64,000 bases of DNA from Anaerolineaceae bacterium (GTDB lineage Bacteria > Chloroflexota > Anaerolineae > Anaerolineales > Anaerolineaceae). The stretch covers positions 1,488,001-1,552,000 of the forward strand of contig JAENZD010000001.1 in the NCBI GenBank assembly GCA_016841445.1, written 5' to 3'. The translations under genes were made by a program, and so were the position numbers. This document shows, one piece after another, positions 46,249 through 52,936 of this stretch (position 1 is its first letter; each line of letters begins with the position of its first letter). The notes below the pieces were generated by a model. The model made no database searches. It saw nothing but the letters and a program-made list of their open reading frames with translations, and was not told the DNA's origin.

Positions 46249-48105
46249 CTAAACGATCTCAACTTCCCTCAATGGAATACCGCAGTTCAAGAATGCTTCC
46301 AACAATGTTTGCCTGTTTTCCTTGGCTAACCCTTTAATGACCCACCTCAATGTAAATGAGCCGTCCGAAAATGTATTATTGACTGTTCTCAAGATATTGC
46401 CGCCAAATTGTGAAACCAGGCTTGCCAGCGAGGCTAAAACCCCGGGTTTATTGGTGTTTGCCGGCCCGACAATGTTGATCGTCGTCCAGCCCAGATGTTC
46501 TTTGGTGATACCTGCCTCATCCAAAGCATTGATCGCATCTGATAATAATATCGCACCACCACCCAATGCCGAATAAAAATCATCGAGGCTGGCAGCAGCC
46601 AGTTCACTCAACATTGTTTCGAAAAACACCCGCTCCTGGATCTGCACGTCTTCCAGGTCCACAATGCCGCGTGCCATCAATGTGGGCTGGATCATTTTCC
46701 GTCCTTCTTCAGCGGTTTGCTTGAGAGCAGCCGTCACCAATACAGAGCGCAGCATTCGAGCGGTTGATAGGTTGCAGAACCCCAGCCAATCATCATTCGG
46801 CACCAACCTGGATCCCTCAGTGATCACCTCAACCACATCACCCGGTTTCACCGGATCACGCAGTAATGATGTTTTGCCATTGACTTCAACATGGTTGATT
46901 TTATCCAGCAGGAAATCCTGGATTGAGGCAACGGCATCCAAAACCGTAGAACCATCCGGCAAGAACCTCGTGCCGCCGGTTGGCGTGAAGATTTGAATTG
47001 GTTTATAGCGGTTGATCGGTTTGCCATGCTGAAGCGCATCGATCAAACCCCACAAATTCTCCCCTTCCATATCTTCCGTTGTGATCGCCACCTCAACCGC
47101 CCCACGGTCCGGCATCCAGGCTGTCACCTGCAGTGCCTGGTAGCCATGCTGCGGGCTGGCGATGTAATCATCAAAGCGGTTATGGTCAAGACTCCTGTTG
47201 AACATCCGGTTGACGCGTGAGAGCAGACGGTAGCAGTTCTCAACATTGGAACCGCTGACCAGCATCCGGAAACTGACGATATCGTTAACAGCTGAAAAAT
47301 TGTCCAGGGACGTTCTGCGGTCGCGTGCCATCCGCCGCAGCTTCTGCCAGGCTTGCCAGTAGCCATTGACGATGATCCTTAATCTACCGTCAACCCCTTC
47401 ATCCTCCATCAATTCCTGGAGCTGCGCCAGCATTTCGTTGATGAAACCCAAATCCAGGCGTGGGTCACGGTTAATCTCCTGCGTTACGAATGCGTAGGCA
47501 TTCGGCTCAGCATAGGGGAATGCCATATCTTCCAGCCATCTTCGCCAGCGGTAGCAGTTCAAGATCCCCGCCAGTTTCCCGTAAGCCCGGATCGCTTCCG
47601 TCGCTTTCTGGTGCTGTTTCTTAGGGGACATATGTTCAAGCGTCATGATATTGTGGCTTTTATCCGCCAGTTTAATAAGAAAAACCCCGGGATCACGAAA
47701 TCTTGCGATCTTCCGGAGTGTCTCAAGCTCACGAGAGCGGCCATCTCGGGGATTGCTCATCTTAGTCACGCCGTCGACAAGGTAGGCAACGTGCTTTCCA
47801 AGCAAGCCTGGGAAAAGCTCTTGAATTTCCTCCAGGCTTTCACCCTGGTCTTCAACGGCATCATGTAAAAGCGCAGCGATCGTCCAGGCTTCATTTTGTA
47901 CGAGCCGGTCAAGGAATTGCGCAATCCACACACAGTGGGTTTCGAAATAAGGCTCACCGCTCAGCCTGAGCTGGCCCTTGTGGATTTTCTTGCCAAAGGC
48001 ATAAGCCTTTTCAATCGCGGGTGTACGCGGTACAAAATCCCCCAATAGGCTGAACTCATCCACAATTTTGGGGCGAATCTCGCGTACAAACTCAACTTCA
48101 ACCAT
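46249..48105 (-). CDS. RelA/SpoT-like protein with intact HD and degenerate synthetase
   Basis: A 618-aa protein, shorter than typical bifunctional enzymes (over 700). The HD hydrolase domain is intact: HCVWIAQFL, LLHDAVED (His-Asp) and LIKLADKSHNIMTLEH. The synthetase domain is divergent. NDIVSFRMLV and DDYIASPQHGYQALQVTAW stand where DLxAxR and DYI(A/K)xPKxNGYQSLHT are expected. The usual catalytic EVQIRT is VEVAITT. TGS (IQIFTPTGGTRFLPDGSTVLD) and C-terminal ACT domains follow. It probably hydrolyses (p)ppGpp without making it; that is inference from motif loss. I start at ATG 48105, with AAGGA upstream. Confidence 0.85.
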   Translation of the reverse strand: MVEVEFVREIRPKIVDEFSLLGDFVPRTPAIEKAYAFGKKIHKGQLRLSGEPYFETHCVWIAQFLDRLVQNEAWTIAALLHDAVEDQGESLEEIQELFPGLLGKHVAYLVDGVTKMSNPRDGRSRELETLRKIARFRDPGVFLIKLADKSHNIMTLEHMSPKKQHQKATEAIRAYGKLAGILNCYRWRRWLEDMAFPYAEPNAYAFVTQEINRDPRLDLGFINEMLAQLQELMEDEGVDGRLRIIVNGYWQAWQKLRRMARDRRTSLDNFSAVNDIVSFRMLVSGSNVENCYRLLSRVNRMFNRSLDHNRFDDYIASPQHGYQALQVTAWMPDRGAVEVAITTEDMEGENLWGLIDALQHGKPINRYKPIQIFTPTGGTRFLPDGSTVLDAVASIQDFLLDKINHVEVNGKTSLLRDPVKPGDVVEVITEGSRLVPNDDWLGFCNLSTARMLRSVLVTAALKQTAEEGRKMIQPTLMARGIVDLEDVQIQERVFFETMLSELAAASLDDFYSALGGGAILLSDAINALDEAGITKEHLGWTTINIVGPANTNKPGVLASLASLVSQFGGNILRTVNNTFSDGSFTLRWVIKGLAKENRQTLLEAFLNCGIPLREVEIV

Positions 48106-48358
48106 CAATGGTCCTTGACTATGACTCGAGTACTTTTCCGTATTAGAAAATCATTCTGCTTTACGATCCAGCTAGATTGACGGCTTCTCGATCATTTCGG
48201 CGTTTTTACTCGACTGAAGCTTCAACAACATATTACGGACACGGTATTAATGGATGATTATATCGTTTTTTCAATATAAAGACAAATTTTGTTTAAACAC
48301 CGATATCGTTTAATAGACACACAATCGTTCCTCATCCGCTTTCCAACCCATTCCACCC
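48106..48358. other. gap between divergent genes
   Basis: About 250 bp, AT-rich in its right half, followed at once by the SOS promoter. No gene or terminator is evident. Confidence 0.4.
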
Positions 48359-48387
48359 TTGAAATAGAACGATTGTTCTATTATAAT
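48359..48387 (+). promoter_or_regulatory. SOS-regulated promoter with embedded LexA box
   Basis: -35 TTGAAA at 48359-48364 and -10 TATAAT at 48382-48387 have a 17-bp spacer. Sixteen of those bases (48365-48380) form the perfect palindrome TAGAACGATTGTTCTA. Its core GAAC-N4-GTTC is the Gram-positive-type SOS box bound by LexA. A repressor there would block polymerase directly. Transcription should begin near 48394, about 75 nt before the first gene. Confidence 0.88.
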
Positions 48388-48467
48388 AAGAACACTCATT
48401 GCTCAAGTCTTTCTGGTGCCCAGGCCGCGCCAGACCAGGTAACCACGCGATCTTTCAGGACGGACCT

Positions 48468-49015
48468 ATGAACCGACAGCTAACCATCTTCCCAATCCCC
48501 AAAGCAGGAAAAATCTCCCTGGTGGTGGCGCCCAGGGGTGTTGTGCAAAGCCTGATGACCATGCTGGCGGCCCTGGCCCTGCGCGGGCGGGTGATCGTCC
48601 TTGACGGCGGCAACTGCTTCAATGGCTACGCCCTGGCACGTGCTATCCGGCAGCACACCCACCAGGTGAAAGACGTCCTCAAACAGGTGATGCTTTCACG
48701 TGCTTTTACCTGCTACCAGATGACGGCCATGCTGGCCAAGCTGCCCATTGACGGCACCCCGGTCATCGTCCTGGACATGCTGGCAACCTTCCTGGATGAG
48801 AACGTCAACTTCAACAAGCGCCAGCGCCTGCTCGATAACAGCCTGAACCTGCTCAGGCGCATCAGTGAAGGTGCACCCGCCGCCGTCTGGGCACGCACCC
48901 GCGCCACGCCCACCGGCGAAGACCAGCAGTTCCTGGCTCCCCTGCTGGAAACAGCCCAGGATATCTGGGAACTGCAGGCGCCGGAAATACCCGTGCATCA
49001 ATTACCGTTATTTTA
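48468..49015 (+). CDS. RecA/ImuA-like protein with C-terminal clamp motif
   Basis: A 182-aa protein with a RecA-like core by pattern: ISLVVAPRGVVQSLMTMLAALALRG, RVIVLDGGNCFN and TPVIVLDMLATFLD alternate strands and helices. No Walker A GxxxxGK(T/S) is present, so it probably does not bind ATP normally. The last five residues are QLPLF, a match to the beta-sliding-clamp-binding consensus QLxLF. ImuA of the SOS mutasome is likewise a RecA-like non-canonical protein, and its partner ImuB ends in a similar motif. First gene of an SOS-boxed operon. ATG 48468 has AGGACGG upstream; a longer frame to 48399 would start close to the promoter. Role inferred. Confidence 0.7.
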
Positions 49016-49032
49016 GTGTTAAGGAGAACCTC

Positions 49033-49296
49033 ATGGGACGTACACTCCCCTCAGCAACCCAGTTAATGTTAAATGAAGAAGCCGCGCTGTCTCGCTTCCG
49101 CCGTGCCCTGCGGCGGGAGGACCAGCTCACCTTTGATGACCTGTTCACGTCTGCCCAAAAGCATATTTCCGCCGCGGCCTATGCCGCCCATGCCCTGCCG
49201 TTTGAGACCTTCCTGATGGCCATGCTCCTCGAGGAGCACAAAGAAGTCCTGCGCATGCGAAAGATCATCGAAATGCTCGAGGAAATGCATGCCTGA
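49033..49296 (+). CDS. small helical protein of the SOS operon
   Basis: An 87-aa soluble, mainly helical protein with no family I recognise. It contains two amphipathic stretches (EEAALSRFRRALRREDQLTF and EEHKEVLRMRKIIEMLEEM). The ATG has a strong site (AAGGAGAACCTC). It begins 17 nt after the RecA-like gene and overlaps the polymerase gene by 8 nt. Constant coupling suggests it bridges the two proteins, as an accessory subunit. That is inference from layout. Confidence 0.75.
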   Translation: MGRTLPSATQLMLNEEAALSRFRRALRREDQLTFDDLFTSAQKHISAAAYAAHALPFETFLMAMLLEEHKEVLRMRKIIEMLEEMHA

Positions 49297-51604
49297 ATTT
49301 TCGGGTTGGCTGCTCGATCTCTTCGAGGATCCACGCGAGGGGCTGATCCTGTACTTCATCGGTGAAGACGGCATGCGCTGGCGGCTCAGCCAGTCCTTCC
49401 CCATCACCTTCTATGCCCTGGGAAAGGATGCAGAATTAAGAGCCCTGTGGCAGCACCTTAAAGACCGTCCGAGGGAGATCAGCCTGGAGCGGTCCCAACG
49501 GATGGATGTCTTCAAACGGCAAGCGGTGACGGTATTAGCCGTCACGATCAACAACCCTTATGAAGCCCGGAAGATCTTTCAGCAAACGGCGAACCGCTTC
49601 CCGAACCTGGAATATTCGGATGCCGATTTGCAGATCTCCCTGCGCTTTGCCGCCAGCACAGGGGCTTTTCCCCTCTCCCACTGCCATGTGGTTGCCGACG
49701 AGCTGCACCACCTTAAAGAAATCACCGTGCTGGAAGACGCCTGGACGTTAAAATCCACCCCTATCCCCTTGCAGATCCTGTCACTCTCGCCGGATGTCGC
49801 ACCCCACCACGCCCGTCCCAGCTACCTGACGGTTGAGATTCTGGGCGAGACCTATCATTTCGACTTGCGGACCTGGCGTCCGCTGCTGGTCAACCTGCGC
49901 GCCCTGATCCAGCGCTACGACCCTGATTTGATCCTGACGGACTGGGGCGATACCTGGCTGTTGCCGCTTTTGCTCCAGCAGTCAGAAAAATACCACATCC
50001 CCCTCGGGTTGAACCGGGAAACGGGGCGCTGCGTGAGCTGGCGCGAGGAGCGCACCTATTTTTCTTACGGGCAGATCGTCTACCGCGGCCAGCAGATCCA
50101 CCTTTTCGGGCGCTGCCACATCGACCGGCAGAACGCGGTGCTCTGGAATGACTACAAACTGGACGGCACCATCGAGGTCAGCCGGGTCACGTCCCTCCCG
50201 CTGCAGACTTCGGCGCGTGTCTCCCCGGGCACGGGCATCTCATCCATCGAGATGGTTACAGCCCTGCGCCAGGGCATCCTGGTGCCCTGGCAGAAACAGC
50301 AGGCAGAGATGCTCAAGCCGGCTATGGACCTGTTCACAGCCGACCAGGGCGGCCTAGTTTACCAGCCCAGGATCGGCGTCCACAAGAAAGTAGCCGAAAT
50401 CGACTTTGTTTCCCTCTACCCGGCCATTATGGTTCACTTCAACATCTCACCCGAGACGATCCTGCCAAACCCAACCGCGGATAATCTCGTGCCCGCGTTG
50501 GGGCTGGCGATTGACACCAGCCAGGAGGGGTTGATCCCCAAAGCGCTGCGTCCCCTGCTGGAAAAGCGCATTGAAATGAAAAAACATCTCGCCAGCACAC
50601 CCACATGGGATCCCTACCGCAAGAATTTCAAGCGCCGTGCTTCAGCGCTGAAATGGCTCCTGGTGACCTGTTTCGGCTATCTTGGCTATAAAAATGCCCG
50701 GTTTGGTCGGATTGAAGCCCACCAGGCCGTCACCGCCTATGGCCGTGAGGCACTCCTGCGTGCCAAAGAAGCCGCTGAAGATATGGGGTTCAGGGTCATT
50801 CAGCTGTATGTGGATGGGCTGTGGGTGCAGCACCCTGACAAAACACAGCCAGAAGAGATTGAACCCCTTCTGCTGGAAATCCAGGAGCGGACCGGGCTGC
50901 CCATCTCGCTGGACGGCATCTACCGCTGGGTAGTCTTCGTCGGGTCGCGCCAGAATAAAAAGCGCCCTGTTGCTAACCGTTATTTTGGTGTTTTCCAGGA
51001 CGGTTCCATCAAAGTGCGGGGAATTGATGCCCGCCGCCGGGACAGCACCCCATTCGTTTCGGATGCACAGATGCACTTGCTGGAACTGCTTGCCAGCAAG
51101 CCAGAACCTGAGGACGCACTGCCTGAAGCCATCCGTTTCATACGAGAGCGGCTCAGAACGCTCAGGAACGGCCAGGTAGGGCTCTCCGACCTCCTGGTAC
51201 GTCAGCGTCTGGGCAGAAAGCTGGAAGCCTACCGGACGCTCTCCCCGGCGGCGAGGGCGGTTTTACAGCTGCAGGCTGCTGGCAAGGAAATGCGCCCCGG
51301 TCAGCGGGTGCCATTCCTTTATACGATGGGGAAACCGGGTGTTTTTGCCTGGGATAGGCCTCAGCATCCCAACCCGCGCACGGTCGATGTTGAGCGCTAC
51401 CAGCGACTGCTTTTACGGGCGGCTGGTATCGTGCTTGAATCCTGGGGGTTGGATGAAGAAAAGCTGACGGAGAAAGTGCTTTCGGACGCGAGCCAACTAA
51501 CCCTGCCGGTGCCCCGTAAGCAGCACCCGTTGAAGCACAGCCGCAATATTCCAGGCATCGTCAACCCCACGGTGAACCCGACCCTCAAAAACAAGGCCCA
51601 ATAG
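49289..51604 (+). CDS. divergent B-family DNA polymerase
   Basis: A 771-aa polymerase. Motif A is EIDFVSLYPAIMVHFNI near residue 370. Motif B is ALKWLLVTCFGYLGYKNARFG near residue 453, keeping Lys and Gly but with Val for the usual Asn and Phe for Tyr. Motif C is LYVDGLWVQH near residue 507. The usual YxDTDS reads YVDGLW, so the first Asp stays and the second, metal-binding Asp is Leu. In the N-terminal third the proofreading DxE motif is absent, although DPDLILTDWGD resembles the second exonuclease motif. SOS control and lost proofreading suggest a translesion or structural role. The last about 36 codons overlap a convergent exonuclease gene. Confidence 0.85.
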   Translation: MPEFSGWLLDLFEDPREGLILYFIGEDGMRWRLSQSFPITFYALGKDAELRALWQHLKDRPREISLERSQRMDVFKRQAVTVLAVTINNPYEARKIFQQTANRFPNLEYSDADLQISLRFAASTGAFPLSHCHVVADELHHLKEITVLEDAWTLKSTPIPLQILSLSPDVAPHHARPSYLTVEILGETYHFDLRTWRPLLVNLRALIQRYDPDLILTDWGDTWLLPLLLQQSEKYHIPLGLNRETGRCVSWREERTYFSYGQIVYRGQQIHLFGRCHIDRQNAVLWNDYKLDGTIEVSRVTSLPLQTSARVSPGTGISSIEMVTALRQGILVPWQKQQAEMLKPAMDLFTADQGGLVYQPRIGVHKKVAEIDFVSLYPAIMVHFNISPETILPNPTADNLVPALGLAIDTSQEGLIPKALRPLLEKRIEMKKHLASTPTWDPYRKNFKRRASALKWLLVTCFGYLGYKNARFGRIEAHQAVTAYGREALLRAKEAAEDMGFRVIQLYVDGLWVQHPDKTQPEEIEPLLLEIQERTGLPISLDGIYRWVVFVGSRQNKKRPVANRYFGVFQDGSIKVRGIDARRRDSTPFVSDAQMHLLELLASKPEPEDALPEAIRFIRERLRTLRNGQVGLSDLLVRQRLGRKLEAYRTLSPAARAVLQLQAAGKEMRPGQRVPFLYTMGKPGVFAWDRPQHPNPRTVDVERYQRLLLRAAGIVLESWGLDEEKLTEKVLSDASQLTLPVPRKQHPLKHSRNIPGIVNPTVNPTLKNKAQ

Positions 51605-52057
51605 TTCTGTCGCTTTGACCAAATTAACTTCGCGTTTGAGCCCAAGCTGTAATGCCAGTAAATTCTTCACATTGATGTGGGAAGGTCCGAATGGATAAGT
51701 AATCCACATCGCCTGGCACTGCCCAGTGAACTGCCGCCGGTCATAATCGCCGTAGCTCGCCCATGTTCGCTGATGGGAAAGGTATTCAGTCCGCAAAATC
51801 ATGCATGCATCCTGGAATGACTGAGCATCTTCCAGCATATCTGGGGTAATCCCGGTCAGTTGAATGCAGAATTCGCTCAAGTCGGATCGCTCAGGTTTAA
51901 CAAAAATGGGCCTGGTGGATCCCCGCTCCCCGGTCTGCACATCCAGCTCACACAGCCCAATCTCGATGATCTCAGCCGTCTGCCCAGCCGGTGGTTCATT
52001 CTGCCAGCATGTGGCCTCAATATCAACCACAAGAACGGTATCAAGCTTGCGTGCCAT
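51497..52057 (-). CDS. DEDDh-type 3'-5' exonuclease (ERI1/KapD-like)
   Basis: A 186-aa exonuclease. Exo I is VVDIEATCWQ (Asp and Glu). Exo II lies in ASYGDYDRRQF (Asp). Exo III is HRGVDDAWNIAAVL (His and Asp), spaced as in DEDDh enzymes of the ERI1/KapD branch, which trim RNA or single-stranded DNA 3' ends. The gene converges on the B-family polymerase and overlaps its 3' end by 108 bp. The overlap contains the catalytic His-Asp block, so this strand is clearly functional there. ATG has a GGGGGG-type site. Whether it proofreads for the neighbouring polymerase is speculative. Confidence 0.88.
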   Translation of the reverse strand: MARKLDTVLVVDIEATCWQNEPPAGQTAEIIEIGLCELDVQTGERGSTRPIFVKPERSDLSEFCIQLTGITPDMLEDAQSFQDACMILRTEYLSHQRTWASYGDYDRRQFTGQCQAMWITYPFGPSHINVKNLLALQLGLKREVNLVKATELLGLVFEGRVHRGVDDAWNIAAVLQRVLLTGHRQG

Positions 52058-52063
52058 ACCCCC

Positions 52064-52423
52064 CTAGCCTTCTGCTCTCACCCGCGATTGATCGGCGCGG
52101 CTCATCCCATCAACAACCAGGTCATAAGACTCATCTATCATCTTGCGCAGTTCGTCATCCGGAACGCTGCCATCGAGTGTAACTGTGTTCCAGTATTTCT
52201 TATTCAAATGATATCCCGGTTTGATGGATGGGTATTTCTTTCTTAGAATAACAGCATCAACTGGGTTAGCTTTTAATGAAATCGTTAGCGGATCAGCCTG
52301 CCAAGCAACCAGGGCAAACATCTTATCCAATACTTTGAAAACCAATACATCTGCGCCAAAAGGCATATCCCGGCGTGCTGCAGGTTTGTTTTCAAGATAA
52401 GCACAGAGCGTTTCATAATCCAT
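52064..52423 (-). CDS. MmcQ/YjbR-family protein
   Basis: A 119-aa protein of the YjbR/CyaY-like fold. It shows the usual run: LENKPAARRDMPFGADVLVFKV, DKMFALVAW, PLTISLKANPVDAVILRKKY, PGYHLNKKYWNTVTLDG and IDESYDLVVDGM. This family is thought to bind DNA in some cases, but its role is unknown. It lies 6 bp upstream of the exonuclease gene on the same strand, so they are co-transcribed. Confidence 0.9.
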   Translation of the reverse strand: MDYETLCAYLENKPAARRDMPFGADVLVFKVLDKMFALVAWQADPLTISLKANPVDAVILRKKYPSIKPGYHLNKKYWNTVTLDGSVPDDELRKMIDESYDLVVDGMSRADQSRVRAEG

Positions 52424-52441
52424 GATCTGAAATCCCGAGAC

Positions 52442-52936
52442 CTAAGGAACCCGGAGAAATTCAACCTTGTCTTCAGCAAGATCAACAATACAAAAAGTGC
52501 GTGACCCTCTTCCTAAACCACCTAATGCGCCAGGGTTAACCACGCGAGTGTCCCGGATCACTTCATCACGTTTCTCGTGCGTGTGTCCATGAAATATCCA
52601 GTTGAATTTCTTTTGACTGACCAGGTCCATGATTTTATTGTTAATATGACCGTGTGTGGCCGCAACCAGAACCCCACCTAATTTACCCTTGAACACCGTC
52701 CCGGCGAAGTTGTCTTCTCGCATCTTTTCGAAACGGGATTTGATCGCCCCATTGACCTTATCCATATTGCCAATGAGATAAATTACTCTGAATCCATCAA
52801 AATGGGAGACCATTTCCAGGCTGGTCAGGTCCCCACAGTGAATGATCGTTTCTATCTCCTTTTCGCGGAAAACCTCAAGAACATAAGTGAGGTTTGAGAG
52901 GTTATCATGGGTATCGGACATCACACCTATCTTCAT
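52442..52936 (-). CDS. MJ0936/YfcE-family phosphodiesterase
   Basis: A 164-aa calcineurin-like phosphoesterase. Metal-binding motifs are GVMSDTHDN, IIHCGDLTS, LIGNMDKV, ATHGHINN and FHGHTHEKRD; the order and spacing are those of YfcE and MJ0936, which hydrolyse phosphodiesters with Mn or Ni. The NPGALG near the C-terminus is also typical. The ATG at 52936 has GGAG 9 nt upstream. It lies 18 bp upstream of the yjbR-like gene and probably heads the three-gene minus-strand operon. Confidence 0.92.
   Translation of the reverse strand: MKIGVMSDTHDNLSNLTYVLEVFREKEIETIIHCGDLTSLEMVSHFDGFRVIYLIGNMDKVNGAIKSRFEKMREDNFAGTVFKGKLGGVLVAATHGHINNKIMDLVSQKKFNWIFHGHTHEKRDEVIRDTRVVNPGALGGLGRGSRTFCIVDLAEDKVEFLRVP

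Follow-up and report, generated by a model that had tools for sequence, protein, structure and literature searches.

The system closest to the one treated here was noted as an operon by Makarova et al. 2014 (PMC4104785), with lexA as a neighbour in some bacteria, and was described by Timinskas et al. 2025 (PMC11791011) as the PolB2 mutasome, composed of iRadA, PPB2 and PolB2, with iRadA-PPB2-PolB2 as the sole order in bacteria, a clamp motif on iRadA, an MGRT arm on PPB2 and lexA enriched among the neighbouring genes; a survey of 2026 (PMC12926913) names the PolB2 group G2. The Sulfolobus polymerase, Dpo2 (PolB2), is an active enzyme that lacks 3'-5' exonuclease and carries extension beyond lesions (PMC8764526), and in S. 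islandicus it is solely responsible for targeted mutagenesis (PMC7390963). Here we analyze a three-gene operon within a stretch of 64,000 nucleotides (nt), hereafter the window, from an Anaerolineaceae bacterium of the Chloroflexota (the host; assembly GCA_016841445.1, contig JAENZD010000001.1, positions 1,488,001 to 1,552,000), and we consider it highly probable that this operon encodes a PolB2 mutasome held off by LexA. A first-pass annotation of the same DNA had proposed a translesion or damage-tolerance complex under SOS control, analogous to the mutasome but with a B-family polymerase at its centre. The promoter box, the gene order and the protein families support that proposal, which was right in substance; the system is, however, already published (PMC11791011, PMC4104785), and the partner of the polymerase resembles RadA/Rad51 and not ImuA.

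With the mutasome as presented in the texts of PMC11791011 and PMC4104785, the locus shares the three families and their order, the MGRT arm, the D(K/R) motif, the loss of the first Asp of DxD, the inactive exonuclease, the beta-clamp motif on iRadA and a link to LexA, which there consists of a neighbouring lexA gene. It differs from the system described in those texts in two respects, namely a LexA box lying in the promoter spacer and conserved across Anaerolineae, and a gene for a GerE-type helix-turn-helix (HTH) protein that heads the operon in most relatives of this class.

The three genes stand adjacent on the same strand in the order iRadA-PPB2-PolB2, separated by a gap of 16 nt and then overlapping by 8 nt, and are thus as tightly coupled as had been claimed. 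Searched alone against Pfam, the first protein gave a weak match to Rad51 below the cut-off (E=0.039); a profile of 19 iRadA sequences found RadA in the PDB at E=2.8e-10, with RecA chains at 0.8 or worse. Its AlphaFold2 model, with a predicted local distance difference test score (pLDDT) of 86.4, reached E=6.4e-9 in a Foldseek search of the PDB, and the best 50 rows were RadA, Rad51 and DMC1 entries together with paralogue complexes. The alignment contains no Walker A motif or P-loop, and on the whole these data support a RadA/Rad51 homologue in which the ATPase site has apparently been lost. The earlier description of a RecA-like protein devoid of Walker A and ending in QLPLF therefore holds for the missing motif and for the C-terminal end (HQLPLF), but not for the affiliation; since RadA/Rad51 is nearer than RecA, the protein is not an ImuA. 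Residues 172-182, which include QLPLF, form a disordered tail in the model (pLDDT below 50), and a clamp-like Q-x-x-L/M-F is found at or near the C-terminal end in 13 of the 19 aligned iRadAs. The second protein matched no family in Pfam, so that it is recognized as PPB2 by motif, size and place; in 14 aligned N-termini M1, G2 and T4 are invariant (14/14) and R3 is kept in 11.

The third protein matches Pfam PF00136 (E=5.6e-35) and NCBIfam NF004416, "type B DNA-directed DNA polymerase" (E=4.8e-110; 368.9 bits, under the cut-off of 516), and at ExoI the alignment places S-P-D where archaeal enzymes have D-x-E, leaving no working DEDD proofreading motif, as the first reading of a B-family polymerase without DxE had it. 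By PolB2 identity (81-84%), the nearest relatives with a name belong to Brevefilum sp. and to metagenome-assembled genomes of Anaerolineaceae. Haloarchaeal PolBs align to 93-98% of its length with 27-30% identity and lead the 48 plasmid records spanning most of the query; among the 60 of 114 plasmid records listed, all are archaeal by name except two cyanobacterial ones. One might suppose an accurate SOS polymerase comparable to Pol II of E. coli, serving replication restart without mutagenesis, given that Pol II, too, belongs to the B family and is induced in the SOS response (PMC12926913) and that Dpo2 has high fidelity on undamaged DNA (PMC8764526). We regard this as extremely unlikely: the ExoI motif is absent, the E. 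coli Pol II chains (E=1.5e-9) score far worse than those of archaeal-type PolB (E=9.8e-44), and Pol II is a single-subunit enzyme with working proofreading and with neither iRadA nor PPB2 as partner.

A feature absent from the first-pass annotation is the alteration of polymerase motif C from D-T-D to Y-V-D. In an alignment of 25 PolB2 sequences (L081, L082, L090 and L093 were left out, the start motif not being found there) the first Asp of DxD is lost throughout and motif B is changed as well (KxxxVTCFGYLG type), the group was for long called inactivated (PMC4104785), and the host possesses one Y-family polymerase; these observations would fit a catalytically dead PolB2 in a complex whose role at stalled forks is structural or regulatory and which aids another polymerase, for example the Y-family one. 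Nevertheless, the Asp of motif A and the second Asp of DxD are invariant in the same 25 sequences, and S. islandicus Dpo2, which has Ile-Ile-Asp at this place (PMC11791011), is robustly active (PMC8764526). A dead polymerase appears, on this evidence, unlikely.

Concerning the control of the operon, the putative promoter has the layout first assigned to it, with TTGAAA at 48359-48364, a spacer of 17 base pairs (bp) holding a perfect GAAC-N4-GTTC, and TATAAT at 48382-48387. By itself this promoter match is within chance, because a scan of 48100-51800 returned 2 such sites versus 1.8 in shuffles; an Rfam search of 47500-52500 gave no match. GAAC-N4-GTTC is the LexA box of several phyla, and in the window the box GAACGATTGTTC is embedded in the perfect palindrome AATAGAAC-GATT-GTTCTATT, with arms of 8 bp (48363-48382). 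The palindrome might also be the site of another regulator or a product of chance: LexA binding is predicted here from the sequence, and the bare 12-mer, with 41 copies in the host genome versus 39 for a backward control pattern, is not enriched (none of the other copies has arms as long as that in the window, the runner-up reaching 7). The chance reading suggested by this count is overturned by the conservation of the box in relatives and by the boxes of the host lexA and recA genes. The host's single LexA comprises DNA-binding and S24 domains, and an exact box stands 71 bp ahead of its gene; the only recA carries GAACATATGTGC, with one mismatch, in the promoter spacer between TTGACA and TAAAAT (read by eye).

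The first count in relatives covered 36 Anaerolineae loci, up to 600 bp before the first gene of the operon, and accepted at most one mismatch; L093 (no iRadA found), L011, L029, L031-L033, L035 and L036 (incomplete or doubtful) and repeat fetches were left out, and the rows are not independent (L001, L002 and L006 are near-copies, and L084/L086 and L092/L098 each come from one genome). A box was present in 34 of the 36 loci and exact in 22, versus 7.3 and 0.25 in shuffles, and control windows contained 70/432 and 1/432, respectively. In most loci a TTGAC(A)-like hexamer precedes it and a TATAAT-like one follows it, and across the relatives the arms are kept while the spacer letters vary. Twenty further operons were judged by a stricter rule, which required at least three of the four flanking TA..TA letters for a one-mismatch box; 13 had an exact box, three a one-mismatch box (16/20 in total) and four none, one of which (L141, GAATTGTCGTTC) counts as boxed under the first, looser rule. 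The gene order iRadA-PPB2-PolB2 is common to all 36 loci of the first count. Order and SOS box are both conserved in relatives, and the two sequence-level objections named at the outset therefore fail. The box also precedes all 11 unlinked GerE genes examined (see below). A site of another regulator, or of none, is thus very unlikely, and the box, shared with the lexA and recA promoters of the host and conserved in relatives, behaves as that of a member of the SOS regulon. Within the open-licence PMC literature (supplements and subscription papers lay outside the search), the topics of LexA in Chloroflexi/Anaerolineae and of PolB2 with LexA or an SOS box yielded no report of such control.

From what is known of the SOS response, LexA bound to the palindrome between -35 and -10 would block transcription in undamaged cells, and upon damage RecA filaments would trigger its self-cleavage, allowing iRadA, PPB2 and PolB2 to be made together. 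By analogy with the published work on PolB2, the polymerase would then be bound by a PPB2 trimer and by iRadA, whose QLPLF tail would recruit the assembly to the beta clamp where a fork has stalled, and PolB2, devoid of proofreading, would extend primer ends beyond lesions at the cost of mutations. Several observations, besides the genome count of the bare 12-mer, weigh against a LexA-controlled PolB2 mutasome. The clamp motif is absent or degraded in 6 of the 19 iRadAs; the activity of a PolB2 with altered DxD is known from Sulfolobus only; the annotated neighbourhood of PolB2 in Halobacterium has no iRadA or PPB2 gene; and 6 of 56 relatives' loci (L090, L095, L140, L141, L142 and L147) lack an acceptable box. 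The features of the operon are collected in Table 1.

Table 1. Features of the iRadA-PPB2-PolB2 operon and of its promoter, in window positions.
Feature	Position	Strand	Basis or remark
Sigma-70-like promoter, TTGAAA-17-TATAAT	48359..48387	+	11/12 consensus letters; most relatives share the layout
Putative LexA (SOS) box GAACGATTGTTC	48367..48378	+	In promoter spacer; centre of the perfect palindrome of 20 bp at 48363-48382
iRadA, 182 amino acids, RadA/Rad51 homologue lacking the P-loop	48468..49016	+	Profile search, model, fold search
QLPLF, predicted beta-clamp-binding motif at the C-terminal end of iRadA	48999..49013	+	Alignment; meaning of motif from PMC11791011
PPB2, small protein, 87 amino acids, starting MGRT	49033..49296	+	MGRT arm according to PMC11791011
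PolB2, B-family polymerase, 771 amino acids, decayed exonuclease region	49289..51604	+	Pfam, NCBIfam, alignments
D-R (residues 279-280), conserved D(K/R) motif of PolB2	50123..50128	+	D in 25/25; K/R next in 21/25
Polymerase motif A, DFVSLYP	50402..50422	+	Catalytic Asp kept, 25/25
Polymerase motif C, Y-V-D for D-x-D (residues 507-509)	50807..50815	+	First Asp lost, second kept, 25/25

Other translesion systems resemble this one in part. Sulfolobus Dpo2 is likewise a full-length enzyme of the PolB2 type with altered DxD and no exonuclease, and is damage-inducible, but it is archaeal, obeys other regulators and works with PCNA instead of the beta clamp. Pol V of E. coli (UmuD'2C-RecA) is also an SOS-controlled polymerase joined to a small partner and to a protein of the RecA/Rad51 type (PMC11791011), differing in its Y-family polymerase, unrelated small subunit and active RecA. 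ImuA-ImuB-DnaE2 shares SOS control, a partner of the RecA superfamily and a clamp motif on a partner (in part after PMC12926913), and differs in its C-family polymerase DnaE2 and in ImuB. In the host, matches to the DnaE2 model NCBIfam NF004225 were found, none over the cut-off, and the single IMS-type protein (398 amino acids; IMS, IMS_HHH, IMS_C) is DinB-like by size only, not being formally separated from ImuB. The idea that PolB2 replaces DnaE2 was tried and rejected: DnaE2 exceeds the cut-off in 41-43 of 249 genomes of the class, two of which are among the 22 with PolB2 (G085, and G037 with a weak PolB2 match of 29%), and mutual exclusion is not shown, since Fisher's test gives p=0.39.

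The direct arrangement of three genes under the box, as first described, is that of the window, but most relatives depart from it: a small gene for a GerE/LuxR-type HTH protein stands between box and iRadA in 29 of the 36 loci (for example L005:3664-4074; detected by a model built partly from those loci), being missing from the window and from L010, L090, L117, L118, L120 and L123. Pfam GerE was over the cut-off in all ten relatives' copies scanned (L005, L086, L096, L085, L091, L162, L130, L132, L138 and L121). The structure model of the protein has a mean pLDDT of 71.1, below 50 for residues 1-24, and because the model is poor there we make no claim on the N-terminal domain. On the PolB2 tree, where L093 was labelled as GerE-bearing though no copy was seen there, the linked gene requires at least five changes, four of them forced by well-supported branches. 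The host genome has no orthologue at 1e-10 and only HTH-domain matches, the best at 1.8e-6. It does contain a different GerE gene (G000:C1:4037-4435, L041), for a protein of 133 amino acids; the promoter of this gene holds an exact LexA-type box, and its orthologues occur in 5 of 81 genomes of the order. That it might simply be a displaced operon copy was rejected, as G243 and G426 carry its orthologue in addition to the operon GerE. The texts of PMC11791011 and PMC4104785, supplements apart, do not mention an HTH gene in PolB2 operons, and in the literature search described above the topics of PolB2 with LuxR and of a LuxR-type SOS cascade returned no report of such a gene in this role.

Across the same 81 genomes, 24 have the operon-type GerE and 32 have PolB2; 20 have the two together and four GerE alone (G589, G592, G600 and G622), a co-occurrence with Fisher p=2.2e-7 when kinship is ignored. 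Of 29 GerE places 11 adjoin polB2 and 18 lie elsewhere, 12 of the latter having been examined; each of the 11 stand-alone copies among those examined (L130-L139, L146) has its own upstream LexA box (nine exact, two with one mismatch), and in G570:C663 a boxed GerE adjoins an iRadA. Three of the 32 PolB2 genomes have incomplete upstream regions (G130, G602 and G629). Among the 29 with readable promoters, 11 have a box and a linked GerE, 11 a box and no GerE, two a box and an unlinked GerE (G581, G604); in the remaining five (G202, G577, G627, G620 and G570, there the C663 copy) a box-less operon is accompanied by an unlinked GerE that does have a box. Hence, in the 18 without a linked GerE, an unlinked one accompanies 5/5 box-less versus 2/13 boxed operons (Fisher p=0.0025), an association weakened by kinship, in that G620, G627 and G577 are members of a single family and a number of the boxed genomes fall into families f57 and f132.

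Upstream of iRadA, runs of at least four C or G are more numerous than expected in 36 of the 37 GerE-linked loci (107 versus 26.6; L145 left out) and in the five box-less loci (21 versus 5.8), the count being post hoc and based on mononucleotide shuffles. By eye they read as inverted repeats, such as ATCCCCCATTGGGGGAT in L140, with a -10-like hexamer about 17 bp further on, near the iRadA start. A regular expression, written after the data had been seen, recovers the element in 10 loci of the 37 with a linked GerE, where shuffles yield 0.37, in one of five box-less loci, in none of five loci of family f132 and in none of ten without GerE; the element appears to be a real signal, though a poor motif, and we infer that GerE may bind it. 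The 110 bp upstream of iRadA in the window contain no C/G run. Based on these data we tentatively suggest, as a reading somewhat short of probable, a relay in Anaerolineae in which LexA would repress the GerE/LuxR-type protein and this, in turn, would activate iRadA-PPB2-PolB2 through the C/G inverted repeat, giving delayed or thresholded mutagenic synthesis; some lineages, including that of the window, would have lost activator and site and brought the LexA box straight onto iRadA. The runs are, however, twofold over expectation also in 13 loci without GerE (14 versus 6.8), and a strict reading of the element is opposed by three findings: f132 loci without a detected GerE (L148-L150) retain a similar one, it is scarcely visible in L091 and L096-L098, and the regular expression recovers it in a minority of loci.

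As for the surroundings of the operon, an RNase_T-type (DEDDh) exonuclease gene (51497-52057, minus strand) is convergent with polB2, the 3' ends overlapping by 108 bp, and neighbours 62-70% identical to it occur in L001, L002, L004-L008 and L011; a link with PolB2, itself without proofreading, would be speculation. Divergent from the operon lies a gene for a RelA/SpoT-like protein (HD, RelA_SpoT, TGS and ACT-like domains; 46249-48108, minus strand), a position that it also takes in several close relatives. Elsewhere in the host, a promoter holding a pair of LexA-type boxes at a distance of 21 bp (G000:C2:222882-222914, L045) precedes genes for a protein of 277 amino acids, with a weak FtsK/SpoIIIE match just below the cut-off, and for one of 88 amino acids, possibly an SOS operon of a new sort; a strong box with 7-bp arms (G000:C3:1409538-1409549, L063) precedes the gene for a protein of 243 amino acids without Pfam match.

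Bacterial PolB2 mutasomes have been described from sequence and models, and the case for their control has so far rested on neighbouring lexA genes. Through its conserved LexA box, the promoter connects the PolB2 mutasome with the SOS response, on which the open-licence literature searched contains little for this phylum. The parts that may be worth pursuing are this direct box and, even more so, the possible GerE relay: an SOS-boxed GerE partner that co-occurs with PolB2 even when unlinked offers a concrete hypothesis, and, if true, the relay would represent a two-step control of a mutagenic polymerase.

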